Assembly: GCA_003225555.1 (NCBI GenBank)
Contig: QIAM01000006.1
Location: 62,001-126,000, forward strand
Reading direction: 5' to 3'
From: Acidobacteriota bacterium
GTDB lineage: Bacteria > Acidobacteriota > Terriglobia > Terriglobales > Acidobacteriaceae
Length of the DNA: 64,000 nucleotides
The notes below the pieces were generated by a model. That model ran no database searches. It was not told where the DNA came from and saw nothing but the letters and a program-made list of their open reading frames with translations. Each line of letters begins with the position of its first letter. The stretch's first letter is position 1. The translations under genes and the position numbers were made by a program. This document shows positions 8,415-15,195 of the stretch, in pieces.

Positions 8415-8443
8415 TTGACGGCACGACCAGATCAACCTAGAAT
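8415..8443 (+). promoter_or_regulatory. Sigma-70-type promoter of the cysteine-leader/sulfite reductase operon
   Basis: TTGACG at 8415-8420 and TAGAAT at 8438-8443 are separated by exactly 17 bp, a near-consensus -35/-10 pair. Transcription should start near 8450, about 32 nt before the leader ORF, so the leader peptide, terminator and operon share one transcript. Confidence 0.7.
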
Positions 8444-8481
8444 GCCAAATAGAAATGTCAAGTAGCCAAACCCTTCGCGCG

Positions 8482-8547
8482 ATGTGCATGTGTACTTGTT
8501 GTTGTTGTGCATGCGTGTGCACTGGCGCGGGGAGGCTGCTGACCTAA
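8482..8547 (+). CDS. Cysteine-rich leader peptide of the sulfur assimilation operon
   Basis: A 21-codon ORF (ATG 8482 to TAA 8545-8547), too short for ordinary gene calling. It begins MCMCTCCCCACVC and ends TGAGRLLT, with 8 Cys codons among residues 2-13, four of them in a row (8497-8508). Such a run is far outside chance composition and directly precedes an intrinsic terminator and the sulfite reductase gene. By analogy with amino-acid leader peptides, ribosome stalling on Cys codons when Cys-tRNA is scarce would alter downstream RNA folding. The ribosome site before ATG 8482 is weak; ATG 8488 is an alternative start. Polycysteine upstream ORFs are known for sulfur genes in mycobacteria; I know of no description in Acidobacteriota. 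Confidence 0.88.
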   Translation: MCMCTCCCCACVCTGAGRLLT

Positions 8548-8588
8548 GAGATTCTTCTTAATAAAGGCACTGATCACCCACCGCCAGT
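8521..8588 (+). promoter_or_regulatory. Candidate antiterminator of the cysteine attenuator
   Basis: The codons just after the last Cys codon (8521-8532, ACTGGCGCGGGG) can pair with the terminator 5' arm and first loop base (8577-8588): 7 bp, a 2x2 mismatch, then 3 bp. A ribosome stalled on the four-Cys run leaves 8521-8532 free to form this structure and blocks the terminator. A ribosome reaching the stop codon at 8545-8547 would cover or disrupt it. Pairing was checked by hand; no energies were calculated. Confidence 0.7.
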
Positions 8589-8611
8589 CTAAAGCTGGCG
8601 GTGGGTTTTTT
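8576..8611 (+). terminator. Intrinsic terminator (attenuator) before sulfite reductase
   Basis: A perfect 12-bp stem, ACCCACCGCCAG (8576-8587) with CTGGCGGTGGGT (8595-8606), has a 7-nt loop and runs into TTTTTTATTTT. It ends only ~17 bp before the sulfite reductase start codon. The gene on the left is on the other strand, so this cannot be its terminator; it is a conditional terminator inside the operon leader. The same stem recurs at 14024-14054. Confidence 0.92.
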
Positions 8612-8627
8612 ATTTTCCAATCAACTT

Positions 8628-10346
8628 ATGACAGCTGCACCCAAAGAAACGAAGGCACAACGGGTCGAGCGCCTGAAGCGCGAGAAGAATCCCTGGGAAG
8701 GCCTCGAGGAGATTCGCCGCTTCGCGCGCGAAGGATTCGACTCGATTCCTCCCGAGTGGCTGGGAACATATTTCCGCTGGTGGGGCGTGTACACCCAAGG
8801 CGATGGCGCCGGTGTGACGGGCGGGCAGAACGGCGAGGGCAAGGCCCTAAAGCGCTTCATGGTGCGGCTCCGAATTCCCAACGGACTTCTTCGATCGGAA
8901 CAGCTGCGAACGATCGCCGATCTTACCCATCGCTACGCTCACGGAACTGCCGACATCACCGTACGCCAGAACATTCAACTGCACTGGGTCACCATCGAAG
9001 ATCTTCCGGATTTACTCGAGTCGCTTGAGCGAGTCGGCCTTAGTCCGATCAGCGCTTGCGGCGACGTCACGCGCAACGTCACGGGCTGCCCGGTTGCTGG
9101 AGTCGATGCAGATGAGATCTGCGATGCCTCTCCGCTCGTGGTTGAGGCTTCGCGAATGCTGGCCGGGAATGTTGAGTTCTACAACCTTCCCCGCAAATTC
9201 AAGATTTCAATCACGGGATGCAAAGTCTGGTGCCCGTATCCGGAGATCAATGATGTTGGGTTAACGGCCATCACCCGAGGCGTGGGCGCGTCGAGGGAGA
9301 CCGGCTTCTCGCTACGTGTAGCCGGTGGGCTCTCCACTGAACCTTATTTGGGCGAGCGGCTGAACGCATTTGTGCAATGGAATCAGGCTCTGCCGGTGAT
9401 CAAGGGCATTGCCGAGTTGTTCCGCGAGTCCGACGTGCTGCGCGAACATCGCGAGCGCGCACGGCTGAAGTTTCTCTTCCTGCGCCATGGATGGACTGCC
9501 GGCCGTTTCCTGGAAGAACTGCAGGGGAGGATTGGATTTCAGCTCGATCCCGCCGTTCCCGAGCAGCCTCCCGCGGACGTCTATCGCGATCACGTCGGCA
9601 TTCATCCGCAACACCAGCCTGGATATTGCTACGTGGGAGCAGCCGTGCTGCGCGGGCGCATCTCCGCCGAGCAGATGCATGCTGCTGCCGATCTCGCCGA
9701 ACGGTTCGCCGGCGGCGAGTTGCGAACCACCAACATGCAAAACCTGCTCATCGTCAACGTGCCGCAGATCAATGCGGATTCGTTGGCGAAAGAGCTCGAC
9801 GCGATCGGCTTGCGCGTCGGCGGTTCCTCCTTCTTCCGCGGCACCATCGCGTGCAGCGGAACGGAATTCTGCAAGCTGGCGATCACCGAGACCAAGAGTT
9901 TTTCCCGCTGGCTGGTCGAAGAACTCGAAGAGCGCCTGCCCGGTTTCGATCAGCACCTGAAGCTGCACGTCACAGGATGCCCGAACAGCTGCGGCCAGCA
10001 TTGGATTGCCGACATCGGCATTGAAGGCAAAAAGATCAAAGTTCAGGACCGCCTCGTCGACGCTTACTACTTCTGCGTAGGTGGAGCCTTGGGGCTGCAT
10101 CAGGCGACCGCGCGGCCTATCGGCTATCGCTGCGCCGCGACCGAGGTTCCAGACGCGATCGAGCGGTTACTGCGCCAGTACCTGGCGGAGCGCGAGCCAG
10201 CCGAAAACTTGCGTCAGTTCTTTGCCCGGCACAGCGATACCCAGTTGCGGGGACTGCTGGCTGGCGAACTGGTGGAAGCAGTCGCTCGAGATTTACCCGG
10301 CACGACCGGCAACCTCGCACACGCGGCAGGAGGAGACGGTGACTAG
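8628..10346 (+). CDS. sir: Sulfite reductase (ferredoxin-type, siroheme and 4Fe-4S), nitrite/sulfite reductase family
   Basis: 572 residues. Two pseudo-symmetric halves are visible, each with a ferredoxin-like segment. The siroheme/4Fe-4S ligands are the four Cys of CSGTEFC (C409, C415) and GCPNSCG (C451, C455). The N-terminal half carries CGDVTRNVTGCP and GCKVWCPYPEIND. The enzyme reduces sulfite to sulfide with six electrons; sequence alone does not exclude nitrite reductase, but the APS reductase and siroheme genes in the operon and the Cys leader support sulfite. The start ATG 8628 has no clear Shine-Dalgarno; a GTG at 8601 lies inside the terminator and is unlikely. It overlaps the next gene by 8 bp. 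Confidence 0.9.
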   Translation: MTAAPKETKAQRVERLKREKNPWEGLEEIRRFAREGFDSIPPEWLGTYFRWWGVYTQGDGAGVTGGQNGEGKALKRFMVRLRIPNGLLRSEQLRTIADLTHRYAHGTADITVRQNIQLHWVTIEDLPDLLESLERVGLSPISACGDVTRNVTGCPVAGVDADEICDASPLVVEASRMLAGNVEFYNLPRKFKISITGCKVWCPYPEINDVGLTAITRGVGASRETGFSLRVAGGLSTEPYLGERLNAFVQWNQALPVIKGIAELFRESDVLREHRERARLKFLFLRHGWTAGRFLEELQGRIGFQLDPAVPEQPPADVYRDHVGIHPQHQPGYCYVGAAVLRGRISAEQMHAAADLAERFAGGELRTTNMQNLLIVNVPQINADSLAKELDAIGLRVGGSSFFRGTIACSGTEFCKLAITETKSFSRWLVEELEERLPGFDQHLKLHVTGCPNSCGQHWIADIGIEGKKIKVQDRLVDAYYFCVGGALGLHQATARPIGYRCAATEVPDAIERLLRQYLAEREPAENLRQFFARHSDTQLRGLLAGELVEAVARDLPGTTGNLAHAAGGDGD

Positions 10347-10959
10347 CCTGTTTCCCATGTTCGTGAAGCTGGCCGGACGCCAATGCCTGGTCGTTGGCGC
10401 GGGCAAGGTCGGTGAGCCCAAGATTGGCGGGCTGATCGATACGGGGGCGCGCATTCGCGTAGTTGCGATAGAAGCGTCACCGGCTGTTCGCGAGTGGGCG
10501 CGCGACGGGAAGGTCGAGCTGGAGCTCCGGCCTTTCTCGGCGGACGACCTCGACGGAGTATTCCTCACAGTCGTGGCCACGACCTCGAGCAGGTTGAACG
10601 AGTCAATTTATCGCGAAGCGCAGCGGCGCGGCATGCTCTGCAACGTGGTCGATGTCCCCGATTACTGCGACTTCTTCTATCCGGCAGTGGTTCGACGGGG
10701 AGACCTGCAGATCGCCATTTCCACGGCGGGGCAAAGTCCCTCGCTCGCGCAGAAGCTGCGGCAACAACTCGAAAAACAATTTGGCGACGGGTACGCCGCC
10801 TGGGTGACCGAACTGGGAGAAACAAGAAAACTCATCCTCGCCAGCGATCTCGATAAGGAACGCAAGCTCGAGTTGCTGCATTCGCTGGCCAGCAGGGAAG
10901 CGGTTGAAGCGGCGCTGGAAGACGCGCCAGTCCTGGCCGCAAAAGGAGAGGGCGCGTGA
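10339..10959 (+). CDS. Siroheme synthase, precorrin-2 dehydrogenase/ferrochelatase domain
   Basis: 206 residues from a GTG start preceded by AGGAGG and overlapping the end of the sulfite reductase gene by 8 bp; an upstream open frame to 10081 is only an extension. The N terminus reads FPMFVKLAGRQCLVVGAGKVG, the NAD-binding fold of the CysG N-terminal/Met8p domain, followed by NVVDVPDYCDFFYPA and ISTAGQSPSLAQKLRQ, all hallmarks of this family. It oxidises precorrin-2 to sirohydrochlorin and inserts iron, making siroheme for the sulfite reductase encoded just upstream. The methyltransferase half of CysG is a separate gene here. Confidence 0.9.
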   Translation: MTSLFPMFVKLAGRQCLVVGAGKVGEPKIGGLIDTGARIRVVAIEASPAVREWARDGKVELELRPFSADDLDGVFLTVVATTSSRLNESIYREAQRRGMLCNVVDVPDYCDFFYPAVVRRGDLQIAISTAGQSPSLAQKLRQQLEKQFGDGYAAWVTELGETRKLILASDLDKERKLELLHSLASREAVEAALEDAPVLAAKGEGA

Positions 10960-11798
10960 AGGGAAAAGTCTATCTGGTGGGCGCAGGACCGGGTGATCCG
11001 GAGTTGCTGACGTTGAAGGCCTTGCGCCTGCTACGGACCGCCGACGCCGTGTTGCATGACGACCTCGTCGCGCCTGAGATCCTGAATCTGATTCCGCCCA
11101 CAGCGCAGATTCACAACGTCGGCAAGCGCTGCGGGAAGAAGAAAATTCTTCAAGGCGAGATCAATTATTTGATGGTCGCCTTGGCAGCCTCGGGTCTGCG
11201 TGTCGTACGCCTGAAGGGCGGCGATCCTTTGATCTTTGGACGGGCGGGAGAAGAGATCGAATCCCTGCGCCGCGCCAACATTCCATACGAAATCGTTCCC
11301 GGTGTAACTTCCGCACTCGGCGCTGCTGCCGCTGCGCAGATTCCGCTGACCCACCGGCGTGCCTCGTCCGCTCTGGTGCTGATCACTGCTCATCATGCGT
11401 CGGAAAACGGCACAGCGGACTGGAGCAAGTTTGTGGGAAGCGGTGCCACTCTAGTCATTTACATGCCAGGCCAGAACCATTCGGATGTTGCGAGGAAACT
11501 GACATCGGCGGGGCTCGCGGGAGAGACCCCATGCGCCGTGATTTCGCGAGCCACTACCAAACATCAACGAACTCATCGCACGACCGTAGCGAAGCTGCAT
11601 CGAGCGCCGCAGCTCCCCGCGCCAACGCTGCTGGTAGTTGGTGAGGTTGTACGTCTTGCTGATCCGGTGGCCGTGGTCGACGATTTTGTTGTACCGCACA
11701 TGTCGGATGCGAACAGCAGTTCGTATCCTCTGCAACTTTTTGAGACTGTCCCGCTGCAAGCCTCGCGCTCGACAGCGGATGAGGAGCCAATCGCGTGA
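10956..11798 (+). CDS. cobA: Uroporphyrinogen-III C-methyltransferase
   Basis: 280 residues; the GTG start overlaps the preceding TGA (GTGA), indicating translational coupling. Family motifs are VYLVGAGPGDPELLT at the N terminus, VRLKGGDPLIFGRAGEE, the SAM-site segment VPGVTSALGAAA, and PLTHR. The enzyme methylates uroporphyrinogen III twice with S-adenosylmethionine to precorrin-2, the substrate of the upstream gene product. A ~35-residue tail beyond the usual end carries no recognised motif. With the preceding gene it forms a split CysG dedicated to siroheme supply. Confidence 0.92.
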   Translation: MKGKVYLVGAGPGDPELLTLKALRLLRTADAVLHDDLVAPEILNLIPPTAQIHNVGKRCGKKKILQGEINYLMVALAASGLRVVRLKGGDPLIFGRAGEEIESLRRANIPYEIVPGVTSALGAAAAAQIPLTHRRASSALVLITAHHASENGTADWSKFVGSGATLVIYMPGQNHSDVARKLTSAGLAGETPCAVISRATTKHQRTHRTTVAKLHRAPQLPAPTLLVVGEVVRLADPVAVVDDFVVPHMSDANSSSYPLQLFETVPLQASRSTADEEPIA

Positions 11799-12511
11799 AA
11801 CAACAGATTGCACAAATACAGCTGGCGGCGGAGAGTTGGAATCCGCGCCAGGTTCTTGCCTGGGCCTTCGGAAAATTCGGAAACGAAGTGGCGATCTCTT
11901 CGGCATTTGGGGCCGAAGGCATGGCGCTGATTGACATGGCTTCCCGCGTCCAGAAAGATTTCCGCCTCTTCACCATCGACACCGAGTTCCTGTTCCCGGA
12001 AACGTACAATCTGATGGACCGGATTGAAGAACGCTATGGAATCACGATCGAGCGGGTCTATTCCTTGCTCTCGCCGGAAACGCAGGAGCGCGTTCATGGC
12101 GGCGCTCTCTGGAGCCGCAATCCGGACGAGTGTTGCAACCTAAGAAAGGTCGAGCCGCTGCGGCGAAAGCTGACGGATCTGTCTGCATGGATTACGAGTA
12201 TCCGCCGCGACCAAACTTCAGATCGCGCCGGCGCCCGCAAAATCGAGTGGGATGAAAAATTTGGGCTGGTAAAGGTCAATCCGCTCGCCGATTGGTCCTC
12301 GGCGCAGGTGTGGCGTTACATCCGCGAACACGATGTGCCATATAACACTTTGCACGATCAGAACTATCCCAGCATCGGTTGCACGCACTGCACACAGGCC
12401 GTCAAATCCGGAGACGATCCGCGCGCCGGACGTTGGCCGGGCTTTGCCAAGACCGAGTGCGGTCTGCACATGATTGAGCCGGCAGCCACGTTGCCCAAGG
12501 TTCAAGCCTAG
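11795..12511 (+). CDS. cysH: Assimilatory adenylyl-sulfate (APS) reductase
   Basis: 238 residues, GTG start overlapping the previous stop. The PAPS-reductase fold motifs SSAFGAEGMALIDM and FTIDTEFLFPETY are present. The Cys pairs in CCNLRKVEPL and GCTHCT are those that bind a 4Fe-4S cluster in the APS-using subfamily; the E. coli PAPS-type enzyme lacks them. The catalytic Cys lies in TECGLH near the C terminus. It reduces APS to sulfite with thioredoxin, feeding the sulfite reductase of the same operon. No sulfate adenylyltransferase gene lies in the window. The stop codon falls inside a 15-bp tandem duplication. Confidence 0.93.
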   Translation: MKQQIAQIQLAAESWNPRQVLAWAFGKFGNEVAISSAFGAEGMALIDMASRVQKDFRLFTIDTEFLFPETYNLMDRIEERYGITIERVYSLLSPETQERVHGGALWSRNPDECCNLRKVEPLRRKLTDLSAWITSIRRDQTSDRAGARKIEWDEKFGLVKVNPLADWSSAQVWRYIREHDVPYNTLHDQNYPSIGCTHCTQAVKSGDDPRAGRWPGFAKTECGLHMIEPAATLPKVQA

Positions 12512-12538: not shown

Positions 12539-13984
12539 CTAACTTGCTCGGCAGTAGGCGCTGGGATTTCCACCCCAATCCGCGAGCGGCTCCTGACGTG
12601 GAAAGAACAATCGATGCAGCCGTTGCACCGATTCTTCCACGCGCGATTCTTCCACGAGGAACGAGATGCTCCGGTCCGAAGCGCCCTGGCAGGGGACGCG
12701 AACATCCATGTCTGACACCGCGGCGAAAATACGGCTCGCCACCTCTGGCTGGCGGCGAATGTCTTCCCCAACCAGACATACCAGAGCCTTGTGATTTTCC
12801 CATTGGACGCTGGCGAGGCCCTCCAGATCAGCCGCGATGCGGGGGAGGGCTGCGGTGGAACCGACCAGCAACGAGACGCGGCCAATCGAAGTTGCCATGA
12901 TGTCGACCGGGCAAGCATGCTGGTCAAGGACCGCATAAATCGTCCGCAGCAGTCCTAAGCTCACTCCATGCGGAGCTTCGATTTCCACCGCAGCCACATT
13001 GCGCTTCGCAGTAATCGCGATGACCACAGTGCTAGTATCCGCCTGCGCGACGATCTCAGTTCCGGCGCCTTCCGGGTATCTGGAGTTCAGAACGTAAACC
13101 GGGATATTCTCGCGCATCGCGGGAGCTAGAGTCGCAGGATGCAGAACTTTGGCTCCGAAGTGAGCCAACTCGGCAGCCTCGTCAAAACTCATCTTGCGGA
13201 TCACCTTCGCGTCCGCGCAGAGCTTGGGATCCGTAGTCATGATGCCGTCGACGTCGGTCCAGATTTCCACGCGAGAAGCGTGCAGAACCGCCCCAACGAT
13301 CGCTGCGCTGAAGTCAGAGCCTCCGCGACCGAGAGTCGTGGGGATGCCCTCGGCGGTGGCGCCGATGAACCCGCCCATCACTGGAACCTGTCGCAGCCGA
13401 AGCAGAGGCTCGACCGCCCGCCGAAGCCGTTCACTGGTCAGGCTCCAGACAGGAGTTGCTTGCTCGTGGCGCGCGTCGGTAACGATGCAGGAGCGGGCAT
13501 CGATGTGCACCGCACCAACCCCGGCATCGCGCAGAGCAGCGTCCACCAGCTTGCTTGATAGGCATTCGCCAAACCCAAGCAGCCGGTCGTGTGCCGGGGG
13601 ACTCAGTTGACGGCATGACGCTACATCGGAGAGCAGAGACTCCAAATCGCGGAATTCGGCTTGCAGTTCACAACCGAGTTTGTCCGGTGGTTCATTGTTA
13701 AGCAATTCTGCCGCGAGTAACTCATGCCGAATGTAAAGATCACGTGCCATCGCCAGGGCCGAGCCGAGATGTCCACTGGCTGCGGTGTTTCCCGCTTCCT
13801 GAAGTTGGTCCGTCACCCGCGCGAGGGCGCTGACCACGACCACCGGCTGTGCATGAAGCCGAGTACGAACGATTTCTATGAGGCGGCGAATGGCAGCGGC
13901 GTCTTCCACCGAGGTGCCGCCAAACTTTAGAACCACGAGATCTTCTCCCGTTTCAAATCTACTTCGCGGCTGCAATTGGGTCAT
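12539..13984 (-). CDS. lysC: Aspartate kinase, monofunctional, with C-terminal ACT domains
   Basis: 481 residues from ATG 13984, which has GGAG eight bases upstream; a longer frame to 14029 would begin inside the leader terminator and is rejected. Motifs: VVLKFGGTSVEDAAA at the N terminus, the substrate-binding GFGECLSSKL, TTLGRGGSDFSAA, and EIWTDVDGIMTTDP. Two ACT-type regulatory domains fill residues ~310-460. The enzyme phosphorylates aspartate at the entry to lysine, threonine, methionine and isoleucine synthesis. It is preceded by a Thr/Ile-rich leader peptide and a terminator, so expression is probably attenuated by threonine. It is convergent with cysH. Confidence 0.94.
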   Translation of the reverse strand: MTQLQPRSRFETGEDLVVLKFGGTSVEDAAAIRRLIEIVRTRLHAQPVVVVSALARVTDQLQEAGNTAASGHLGSALAMARDLYIRHELLAAELLNNEPPDKLGCELQAEFRDLESLLSDVASCRQLSPPAHDRLLGFGECLSSKLVDAALRDAGVGAVHIDARSCIVTDARHEQATPVWSLTSERLRRAVEPLLRLRQVPVMGGFIGATAEGIPTTLGRGGSDFSAAIVGAVLHASRVEIWTDVDGIMTTDPKLCADAKVIRKMSFDEAAELAHFGAKVLHPATLAPAMRENIPVYVLNSRYPEGAGTEIVAQADTSTVVIAITAKRNVAAVEIEAPHGVSLGLLRTIYAVLDQHACPVDIMATSIGRVSLLVGSTAALPRIAADLEGLASVQWENHKALVCLVGEDIRRQPEVASRIFAAVSDMDVRVPCQGASDRSISFLVEESRVEESVQRLHRLFFPRQEPLADWGGNPSAYCRAS

Positions 13985-14017
13985 AAGGGCAACTCCAATC
14001 CTGAAATTTGCGGGCAC

Positions 14018-14055
14018 AAAAAAACCCACCGCCAGATTGCTTCTGGCGGTGGGTT
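14018..14055 (-). terminator. Intrinsic terminator (attenuator) before aspartate kinase
   Basis: Read on the minus strand, a 13-bp stem (14043-14055 with 14023-14035) has a 7-nt loop and is followed by seven T. Twelve of the base pairs are identical in sequence to the terminator stem at 8576-8606. It lies 34 bp upstream of the lysC start and downstream of the Thr leader ORF, the position expected for a conditional terminator. Confidence 0.92.
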
Positions 14056-14105
14056 CCGATCTCGGCTATGAGTGCTCTAGCTTATCCGGTCCCGTCCTCC
14101 AGAAG
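14040..14105 (-). promoter_or_regulatory. Candidate antiterminator of the threonine attenuator
   Basis: Minus-strand CTTCTGGAGGACGGG (14105-14091), within the last codons of the leader ORF, can pair with the terminator 5' arm plus part of its loop (14054-14040): 7 bp, a mismatch, 2 bp, a small bulge, then 3 bp. The geometry matches the cysteine attenuator: the antiterminator strand follows the controlling codons and competes with the terminator stem. Pairing was checked by hand only. Confidence 0.65.
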
Positions 14106-14177
14106 ACACGTAATTCGTGTCGACGTTGTTGTGCCTGGCGGTGTAATTCGCGTTGCCTTCTGGATCACGAAGTTCAT
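14082..14177 (-). CDS. Threonine/isoleucine-rich leader peptide of lysC
   Basis: A 31-codon ORF (ATG at 14177, TAA at 14082-14084). Its core reads ATRITPPGTTTSTRIT and in total it holds 8 Thr and 3 Ile. It resembles in style the E. coli thr operon leader peptide and sits directly before a terminator upstream of aspartate kinase, whose pathway makes threonine and isoleucine. Scarcity of charged Thr-tRNA would stall ribosomes on the ACA-ACA-ACG stretch and favour the antiterminator. The ribosome site is weak (AAGAAAAAGC). A chance ORF is unlikely given the composition and position. Confidence 0.85.
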   Translation of the reverse strand: MNFVIQKATRITPPGTTTSTRITCLLEDGTG

Positions 14178-14286: not shown

Positions 14287-15195
14287 TCAAGCCTGAGCGG
14301 TGGGGTCTGATTTCTTCCCAGCCATTTGCTTCAACAGAGTGATAAACGTAGTGGTCGCGACAGAAAGGGTCCGGTCGCGGCGGTAGGCCAATCCAAGTTC
14401 CCGGAACAATTCCGCATCCTCCACGTCAACCAGCTTCACTCTGCCGGCCTCTACCTCGTCGCGCGCGAATGAAGCGCTGATCAGCGAGACGCCCAGGTCG
14501 GCTGCCACAAAACTCTTGATCATGCCGATACTGGGAAGTTCCATCCGAACCTGCAGTTCCGCGCTATGCGGCCGGAAGAGCTTGTCCAGAAGCCGGCGCG
14601 TATGCCCGGTCTTCGGGAACAGTAGCGGATGTTTCACAATCTCGCGTATGGAGACGGCCTTGTGCTTGGCCAGCGGGTTTTTGGGACTGACCATCAGCAT
14701 TAGCTTGTCGCGGAAGATGGGATGGATCTTCAAGCTCGGACTCTGGATGGGCAGAGTCAGCACTCCGACTTCAACCGATCCGTTCTCCAGCTTTTCTACG
14801 ATTTTGTAGCTGAAGTTGCGGTAAATATTGATCTGCACCGGCGGATAGCGCCTGCAATATTCCCCAAATACCTCCGGAAGCACGTACAGGCAGGTCGCTT
14901 CGTTCGCGCCTACCCGCAATGTGCCGCGCGGAGTGCGGCTATGGTCTGCGACCGCGACCAGCGACTCGTCGCGGAGATTTTTCATTCGCTCCGCATACTC
15001 GAAAAATACCTGTCCTGCGGGGGTCAGCTTTACCGTTTTGCCCGAGCGGTCGAGTAGACGGTCGCCATACTCCTGCTCCAGTTGGCGGATCTGGGCGCTG
15101 ACCGCCGATTGCGAGCGGAAAACCTTTTCTCCGGCGCGCGAGAAACTGCCTTGCCGGGCAACTTCCAGGAACGTGATGAGCTGATCGAAATCCAT
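14287..15195 (-). CDS. LysR-family transcriptional regulator
   Basis: 302 residues. The N-terminal winged helix-turn-helix is clear (FDQLITFLEVARQGSFSRAG, then FRSQSAVSAQIRQLE). The remainder is a LysR effector-binding domain (LRVGANEATCLYVLPEVF, SFVAADLGVSLISA). The gene is transcribed divergently from gltB across ~240 bp, the arrangement of GltC and its gltAB target in Bacillus, so control of glutamate synthase is a fair inference. Control of sulfur or aspartate-family genes nearby is an alternative. The inducer is unknown. Confidence 0.88.
   Translation of the reverse strand: MDFDQLITFLEVARQGSFSRAGEKVFRSQSAVSAQIRQLEQEYGDRLLDRSGKTVKLTPAGQVFFEYAERMKNLRDESLVAVADHSRTPRGTLRVGANEATCLYVLPEVFGEYCRRYPPVQINIYRNFSYKIVEKLENGSVEVGVLTLPIQSPSLKIHPIFRDKLMLMVSPKNPLAKHKAVSIREIVKHPLLFPKTGHTRRLLDKLFRPHSAELQVRMELPSIGMIKSFVAADLGVSLISASFARDEVEAGRVKLVDVEDAELFRELGLAYRRDRTLSVATTTFITLLKQMAGKKSDPTAQA

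Follow-up and report, generated by a model that had tools for sequence, protein, structure and literature searches.

A candidate cysteine-responsive transcription attenuator preceding a sulfite reductase operon in Acidobacteriota

Comparative analysis of a 64,000-nucleotide stretch of an Acidobacteriaceae genome (assembly GCA_003225555.1, contig QIAM01000006.1, positions 62,001 to 126,000; hereafter "the window") points to a cysteine-responsive, ribosome-mediated transcription attenuator located before a sir-siroheme-cysH operon, a reading to which we assign a probability of roughly 0.9. The features expected of such an element are present by sequence: an open reading frame (ORF) bearing the regulatory codons, an intrinsic terminator, an antiterminator pairing (2:3) that uses the 5′ arm of the terminator, and a protector pairing (1:2). 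Sequence and comparison establish these elements, how they are conserved, and their predicted pairings, which exclude one another; from them we infer initiation, ribosome stalling, termination and a cysteine response.

Architecture and conservation of the sir leader

The leader locus contains the following features (window positions).

8415–8443, + strand: sigma-70-type promoter TTGACG-N17-TAGAAT, matching 10 of 12 consensus positions
8455–8547, + strand: leader ORF MSSSQTLRAMCMCTCCCCACVCTGAGRLLT, 30 codons plus TAA (ATG at 8455, stop at 8545–8547), delimited by comparison of leaders
about 8470–8480, + strand: region 1, the protector strand, which pairs with region 2 in the ribosome-free minimum free energy (MFE) fold
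8485–8520, + strand: Cys block, with Cys at codons 11, 13, 15–18, 20 and 22
8521–8532, + strand: region 2, the antiterminator 5′ strand within the end of the leader ORF, from duplex tests
8567–8574, + strand: GCAC(T)CAT box, in the form GCACTGAT, between the leader stop and the terminator
8576–8588, + strand: region 3, the terminator 5′ arm and first loop base, a partner of either region 2 or region 4
8595–8611, + strand: region 4, the terminator 3′ arm, and the T-tract

An earlier reading of this DNA, made from the sequence alone (the original prediction), had named the same promoter, which is indeed present; by itself the match carries little weight, as 0.8 such sites are expected by chance in the 1 kb scanned. 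In 50 of 54 leaders, the best promoter-like site upstream of the Cys codons ends 6–12 nt before the leader start, and the ATG at 8455 lies 11 nt downstream of the –10 box. Two of the exceptions have a TTG at 3 nt, one has a start at 31 nt, and the last (L047) has no convincing promoter. Because of this narrow spacing, the leader appears to be translated from, or nearly from, the 5′ end of its transcript. The original prediction had also described a 21-codon ORF with eight Cys codons. Its sequence (MCMCTCCCCACVC, from 8482) and Cys count are correct, but it is the in-frame tail of the 30-codon ORF, whose conserved start is 8455: an ATG occurs exactly 30 codons upstream of the stop in 22 of 54 non-redundant leaders, with the others being 26–34 codons long. 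Eight sense codons follow the last Cys codon, and thus the Cys run is not adjacent to the stop.

The terminator (8576–8611) is formed by ACCCACCGCCAG and CTGGCGGTGGGT followed by the T-tract, with 13 pairs and a loop of 5 in a terminator scan from which 0.9 such sites would be expected by chance. The perfect 12-bp stem described previously is borne out, all 12 of its pairs being Watson-Crick. Likewise, the previously proposed 7 + 3 bp antiterminator was recovered, with ACTGGCG (8521–8527) opposite CGCCAGT (8582–8588) supplemented by GGG:CCC, and the 5′ part of the GCACTGAT box adds further pairs to this 2:3 hairpin. The predicted 2:3 duplex has an energy of –19.8 kcal/mol versus a shuffle mean of –13.6 (p = 0.025), and the entire leader folds with z = –5.74. 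A 1:2 pairing, absent from the original prediction, spans the regulatory codons and completes a 1:2 / 2:3 / 3:4 layout in which region 1 resembles region 3 and covers region 2. This pairing is found in the MFE fold (duplex p = 0.033) and reaches p ≤ 0.05 in 28 of 54 leaders. Examples include CGCCAGAGCAC : GTGCTCTGGTG in L047, CCAGAAG : CTTCTGG in L102 and L103, and GCCAGT or GCCAGTG with its complement in L049, L050, L051, L056, L059 and L060.

The density of Cys codons exceeds that of shuffled sequences. The 250 nt upstream of sir include 8 Cys in 12 ORF codons, whereas the maximum among 3000 dinucleotide shuffles is 5; for a set of 186 sir upstreams, in which one genome can occur twice, a count of 6 per 12 codons is seen in none of 3720 shuffles. 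At least 6 Cys in 12 codons are found in 81 of the 107 upstreams whose sir shares at least 70% identity. The reductase is matched in 42 of 45 genomes of the genus, in one case only weakly (4e-4). Of 41 genus sir upstreams examined, one is incomplete and one masked, and a leader ORF with CC and no fewer than 3 Cys codons in total is present in all 39 readable ones, although L014 and L015 contain a single CCC run only. Differences within the Cys block are most frequent at third codon positions (973 versus 596 and 488), with codon 11 being Cys in 20 of 22 leaders (TGT:TGC 8:12) and codon 13 in 21 of 22 (10:11). Codons 2–10 are about equally variable at all three positions (1191, 1081 and 959), and therefore the peptide as such is not conserved. 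The terminator pattern was detected in 32 of the 45 genomes, and its matches all lie at sir or about 5.5 kb away on the sir contig at the lysC position described below, except for one on another contig that has a lysC-type loop (G016:C805).

Pairing is likewise retained. Of 99 leaders, 64 have a 2:3 duplex superior to shuffles (p ≤ 0.05), and in alignment 98.6% of cells are paired for 3:4 (alignment A1) and 91.6% for 2:3. Alignments A1 and A2 were selected by the terminator pattern and hardly vary, and thus pairing and covariation within them constitute weak evidence. The better evidence for the putative 2:3 pairing is provided by leaders found independently of that pattern (L046, L063, L109, L111 and L122), which have a diverged terminator stem and joint changes in regions 2 and 3.

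Folding with an assumed ribosome footprint, which reflects thermodynamics only, agrees with a switch. When the A site is placed at Cys 11, 13, 15, 16, 18 or 20, the RNA made before region 4 forms 2:3 (–20.4 to –28.5 kcal/mol); an A site at Cys 22 or at the stop codon rules 2:3 out, and in the ribosome-free fold 1:2 forms (–42 kcal/mol). We envision that transcripts from the promoter at 8415–8443 would begin with the leader, and that ribosomes would enter its ORF very close to the 5′ end. With ample Cys-tRNA, the ribosome would reach the stop at 8545 and cover or pass region 2, so that 3:4 would pair and transcription would end at the T-tract. Under Cys-tRNA shortage, it would instead halt on or near region 1, at Cys 11, Cys 13 or the CCCC run; region 2 would remain free and capture region 3 ahead of the synthesis of region 4, and polymerase would continue into sir-siroheme-cysH. 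If the leader is not translated at all, 1:2 would form and the terminator would again prevail.

This scheme upholds the Cys-tRNA-sensing attenuator of the original prediction, given the conserved leader, the terminator, the alternative pairing, and the joint changes in regions 2 and 3. Its statement that completing translation to the stop releases the terminator also agrees with the footprint folds, which exclude 2:3 at that codon. Its assignment of the stall to four consecutive Cys codons holds in part: in the folds, a ribosome at Cys 15, 16 or 18 of the CCCC run leaves 2:3 free to form, but sensing is probably not confined to that run, and by their position adjoining region 1, Cys 11 and Cys 13 are probably the first sensing codons. 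The Cys codons, terminator and competing pairing, which it had proposed to look for in homologous leaders, all recur across the genus and family.

Related elements at other sulfur operons, tRNA-Cys genes, lysC and hisI

This reductase is encoded (E ≤ 1e-100) by 74 of 120 family genomes. A covariance model (R1) built from sir leaders only, applied at E ≤ 0.01, matched 160 of 398 family genomes and 54 of 79 genera, a count that includes lysC-type leaders and the reverse strands of hairpins. From among the matches listed, we read 60 loci that lie outside the genus and are not previously collected sir leaders, using translations to assign targets, family searches for the proteins of 37 loci, and a tRNA scan of all 60. 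Among these matches, the targets are as follows.

16/60: rhodanese and family 2A encapsulin shell
11/60: siroheme/cysH
9/60: lysC
7/60: NirA-type reductase
4/60: cysK
4/60: tRNA-Cys (L341, L367, L386, L388)
2/60: sulfonate-binding protein
2/60: target not clear (L337, L382)
1/60: cysDN
1/60: sir
1/60: sulfurtransferase (rhodanese by Pfam, below the NCBIfam cut-off)
1/60: homoserine dehydrogenase
1/60: broken locus (L356)

Fifty of the 60 loci are of the Cys type, and sulfur or cysteine genes lie downstream in 47 of these 50. Forty-six have at least 4 Cys in 12 codons, three have 3, and one is at a contig end. The peptides vary freely between operons, with Cys density, region 2 and the terminator being retained. 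The rhodanese-encapsulin loci (L339, L340, L343–L348, L351–L353, L359, L372, L376, L381 and L387) each carry a Cys leader and terminator; the ORF behind the shell gene gave no family match where it was partly searched (L339, L345). We rejected L356 as a desulfurase target, since its Cys leader lacks a complete terminator and runs into the C-terminal part of an encapsulin-cargo-type cysteine desulfurase, at model residue 427. This is probably an assembly break, and the locus is uncounted.

The tRNA scan returned five genes, all of them tRNA-Cys(GCA). Four are situated directly behind a Cys attenuator, starting roughly 10 to 70 nt past its T-tract.

L341, 356–430, + strand: tRNA-Cys(GCA) behind a Cys attenuator
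L367, 344–420, + strand: tRNA-Cys(GCA) behind a Cys attenuator
L386, 397–472, + strand: tRNA-Cys(GCA) behind a Cys attenuator
L388, 384–459, + strand: tRNA-Cys(GCA) behind a Cys attenuator
L346, 824–899: tRNA-Cys(GCA) between the rhodanese and encapsulin genes

A YeiH-type transporter follows the tRNA in L386 and L388. The leader-tRNA pair of L388 has one other full-length match (G571) in 40 genomes of its genus, the other matches being mostly the tRNA alone or part thereof. By this arrangement, the sensed tRNA may itself be under attenuator control.

Across the phylum, R1 matches occur in 20 of 297 genomes, 8 of which are outside the family. Two of these 8 have a clear poly-Cys ORF with a terminator, before cysH (L403) and before a tetrapyrrole methylase gene (L404); the best-scoring match outside the family (L395, E 8e-9) has no poly-Cys ORF. 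No Cys-dense ORF was found upstream of six distant sir homologues from other Acidobacteriota families (L223–L228), nor upstream of any of 16 sir homologues titled Rokubacteria, Rokuibacteriota or Methylomirabilota. Within the family, by eye, a poly-Cys ORF (e.g., MPTLCCCCCCSPVWVCG) and a hairpin with a T-tract are visible upstream of a peroxiredoxin-like ORF in L399, L401 and L409, neighbors that suggest a redox link.

A second attenuator in the window (14018–14177, – strand) precedes lysC (12539–14029, – strand), and the element is present at lysC in relatives as well. Its leader MNFVIQKATRITPPGTTTSTRITCLLEDGTG (14082–14177, – strand) is Thr-rich, its terminator sequence is identical to that of the Cys attenuator, and its repeats read CCAGAAG / CTTCTGG / CCAGAAG. 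A pattern search of the same genome with the box common to the Cys and Thr leaders located a His leader, MSLVHHHRHHHHHAMSVSAEESG, before hisI-hisG (assigned by Pfam; G000:C62:16068–16122, – strand, and upstream; L262, L264), which has a promoter-like TTGACT-N17-TAGCAT and a terminator. Six other loci in the genus have similar His-rich leaders. The box is located as follows.

14068–14075, – strand: GCAC(T)CAT box of the Thr leader
G000:C62:16115–16122, – strand: GCAC(T)CAT box of the His leader

No common pairing partner for the box was seen in the Thr and His leaders. A looser search for GCAYTYAT in the same genome yielded 5 matches versus 3 in a reversed control, and is thus mostly chance; the combined box and T-tract pattern also gives chance matches in the genus, with five in the reversed control of 45 genomes.

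Because the same element with a Cys-rich ORF lies before many sulfur operons and tRNA-Cys genes in relatives, the sir attenuator is probably one member of a multi-operon regulon. We also favor, with distinctly less assurance than the attenuator itself, a broader proposal for Terriglobia and perhaps other Acidobacteriota: a modular, near-leaderless 1-2-3-4 Cys attenuator would have been copied or re-evolved before genes for sulfur assimilation, cysteine use and tRNA-Cys, with Thr and His versions for lysC and hisI sharing the box. The targets meant are sir, siroheme/cysH, NirA-type reductase, cysK, cysDN, sulfonate uptake, sulfurtransferases, the family 2A encapsulin operon and tRNA-Cys. If this is true, ribosomes would gauge cysteine supply for numerous sulfur operons in a common soil phylum, with tRNA-Cys genes and a sulfur nanocompartment operon among the genes so controlled, and a drop in charged tRNA-Cys would boost cysteine synthesis together with the very tRNA being sensed.

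Counter-evidence and alternative explanations

Several observations weigh against the attenuator or its wider use. The 1:2 duplex does not reach p ≤ 0.05 in 26 of 54 leaders, nor the 2:3 duplex in 35 of 99 loci. Both-side changes in A1 are confined to two pairs of 3:4 and one pair of 2:3, low counts that arise because the set was chosen by the terminator pattern and hardly varies, and 4 of 6 slid controls exceed the true register in 2:3 covariation score. Among 181 upstreams, 27 have a Cys ORF without a terminator call and 55 lack a dense Cys ORF, and at sir identities of about 64% or less most leaders have no clear antiterminator. Since R1 includes the letters of the Cys codons, its matches are in part chosen for their Cys content, and the independent evidence comes from the genes downstream. 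R1 finds no second Cys attenuator in the genome that carries the window, matching only sir, lysC and the reverse strands of both hairpins. Finally, with region 4 present, the 3:4 fold has the greater stability for each stall position compared, and therefore 2:3 must form first and the order of synthesis matters. Antitermination in classical attenuators likewise requires that 2:3 form first.

Among the alternatives, the least improbable is that the element acts on translation, as reported for the polycysteine leaderless short ORFs of mycobacteria; the leader ribosome would then change how accessible the sir start is, and the hairpin would be incidental. The Cys-rich, near-leaderless ORF does resemble its mycobacterial counterparts, and the sir start (8628) lies close behind the terminator. 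However, a strong hairpin and T-tract are conserved, the hairpin's 5′ arm has an alternative partner at the end of the leader ORF, and the same element precedes tRNA-Cys genes, which are not translated. In addition, there is no Shine-Dalgarno-like sequence in 8612–8627, before the sir ATG at 8628, to be sequestered (by eye), and passages of the 2005 report by Seliverstov describe mycobacterial cys leaders without terminators (PMC1262725). We consider this explanation improbable. Marginally less credence is due to a redox or nascent-chain sensor, in which oxidation or metal binding by the Cys-rich peptide, rather than Cys-tRNA supply, would cause stalling. The leaders before peroxiredoxin-like ORFs (L399, L401 and L409; by eye) would fit such a sensor, whereas the variable spacing and flanks of the Cys codons would not, nor would the use of this architecture with other amino acids, Thr at lysC and His at hisI; the presence of Cys leaders before tRNA-Cys genes further makes Cys-tRNA sensing likelier than redox sensing.

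Two other explanations fare still worse. It is very unlikely that the product is a functional Cys-rich peptide, binding metal or redox-active for example, with a terminator that only separates two genes. A Cys-rich peptide is indeed conserved, but codons 2–10 lack coding conservation, the peptides differ freely between operons that keep Cys density, region 2 and the terminator constant, and the conserved C-terminal GAGRLLT corresponds to the RNA of region 2. The possibility that a TTG/TGT/GTT repeat merely happens to read as Cys we regard as negligible. The TTGTTGTTGTTGTG run would encode Leu or Val in other frames, yet stops interrupt frame +1 in 52 of 54 leaders and frame +2 in 18 of 54 (last 28 codons), TGT and TGC interchange at Cys 11 and Cys 13, and none of the 3720 shuffles attains 6 Cys in 12 codons; poly-Leu and poly-Val readings of the TTGTTG run were rejected on account of these other-frame stops and codon swaps. 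A search of the window against Rfam 15 produced 0 matches, the best leader score being 24.6 bits for NsiR1 versus a gathering threshold of 39.

Comparison with known systems and the downstream operon

The trp/his-type attenuators of Proteobacteria have a leader ORF rich in the pathway amino acid, an intrinsic terminator, and three pairings (1:2, 2:3 and 3:4). The sir leader shares with them an amino-acid-rich ORF, three predicted pairings and an intrinsic terminator before the operon. It differs in that the amino acid sensed would be cysteine, in its occurrence in Acidobacteriota, in a leader start probably at or within a few nucleotides of the transcript end, in the GCCAG / CTGGC cores shared by regions 1/3 and 2/4 of many aligned leaders, and in having tRNA-Cys genes among the targets of its relatives.

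Mycobacterial polycysteine leaderless short ORFs were reportedly described by Canestrari in 2020, according to papers that cite this work (PMC9031893, PMC9094748 and PMC13236596). The similarity to our leaders lies in a short ORF with a Cys run before cys or sulfur genes, its use at several operons, and a proposed response to cysteine. A leaderless or nearly leaderless start may be a further similarity, judging by promoter spacing only (–10 to start 6–12 nt, 50/54). Unlike the mycobacterial elements, those in Acidobacteriota have an intrinsic terminator, a region 2 located after the Cys block inside the ORF, and a Cys run away from the stop. Sections of the 2005 report on Cys-rich mycobacterial leaders place the Cys runs near the stop and mention no conserved terminator hairpins (PMC1262725). 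Excerpts of more recent papers describe leaderless, cysteine-responsive leaders with attenuation at translation (PMC9031893, PMC13236596), and polycysteine leaders are also treated in parts of PMC9094748 and, earlier, PMC4633059. The ilvB attenuators of Corynebacterium and Mycobacterium, as portrayed in portions of PMC13236596 and PMC11857589, pair a leader ORF with an intrinsic terminator in a non-proteobacterial phylum, as does our element; they sense branched-chain amino acids, however, and the likeness noted here is one of architecture.

For family 2A encapsulin and cysteine desulfurase operons, sections of PMC8049743 report upregulation of SrpI under sulfur starvation. Such operons, as presented there, share with our set a family 2A shell gene, which lies downstream of some Cys leaders in relatives rather than in the window; a word search of the main text of that paper returned no "attenuat", "leader" or "acidobacteri". 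Passages of a 2010 survey indicate that predicted attenuators in Acidobacteria almost never had an associated function (PMC2965389), and short leader genes appear in Acidobacteria in another context in part of PMC4833913. Our literature search, which covered few subscription papers, found no paper on cysteine attenuation of sulfite reductase, and both the cysteine-sensing form and such switches in Acidobacteria appear little described. The class of mechanism is old; the novelty lies in sensing cysteine by way of an intrinsic terminator, in the phylum, in a leader that is nearly leaderless, in use at multiple operons, and in the tRNA-Cys targets. Further attenuators could be sought by means of the GCAC(T)CAT box and the recurring GCCAG / CTGGC cores, and the short distance from promoter to start would make leaderless leader peptides testable beyond Actinobacteria.

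The four-gene sulfite reductase, siroheme and adenosine 5′-phosphosulfate (APS) reductase operon of the original prediction was corroborated by Pfam matches for all four genes; PAPS denotes the 3′-phosphorylated form of APS.

8628–10346, + strand: sir, sulfite/nitrite-reductase-family hemoprotein (NIR_SIR; PF01077, PF03460)
10378–10959, + strand: siroheme precorrin-2 dehydrogenase/ferrochelatase (PF13241, PF14824); the true start may be slightly upstream
10956–11798, + strand: tetrapyrrole methylase of the uroporphyrinogen-III methyltransferase type, cobA/sumT (PF00590)
11795–12511, + strand: APS/PAPS reductase, cysH (PF01507; TIGR00434 above cut-off)

In an NCBIfam search with three window proteins, every score for the sir protein fell below the curated cut-off, and its designation as a sulfite rather than a nitrite reductase is suggested by operon context. 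A LysR-type regulator is encoded near the operon (14287–15195, – strand), and by eye a similar LysR start follows cysH in another genus (L330:2018–2326). These neighbors may provide promoter-level control on top of attenuation.

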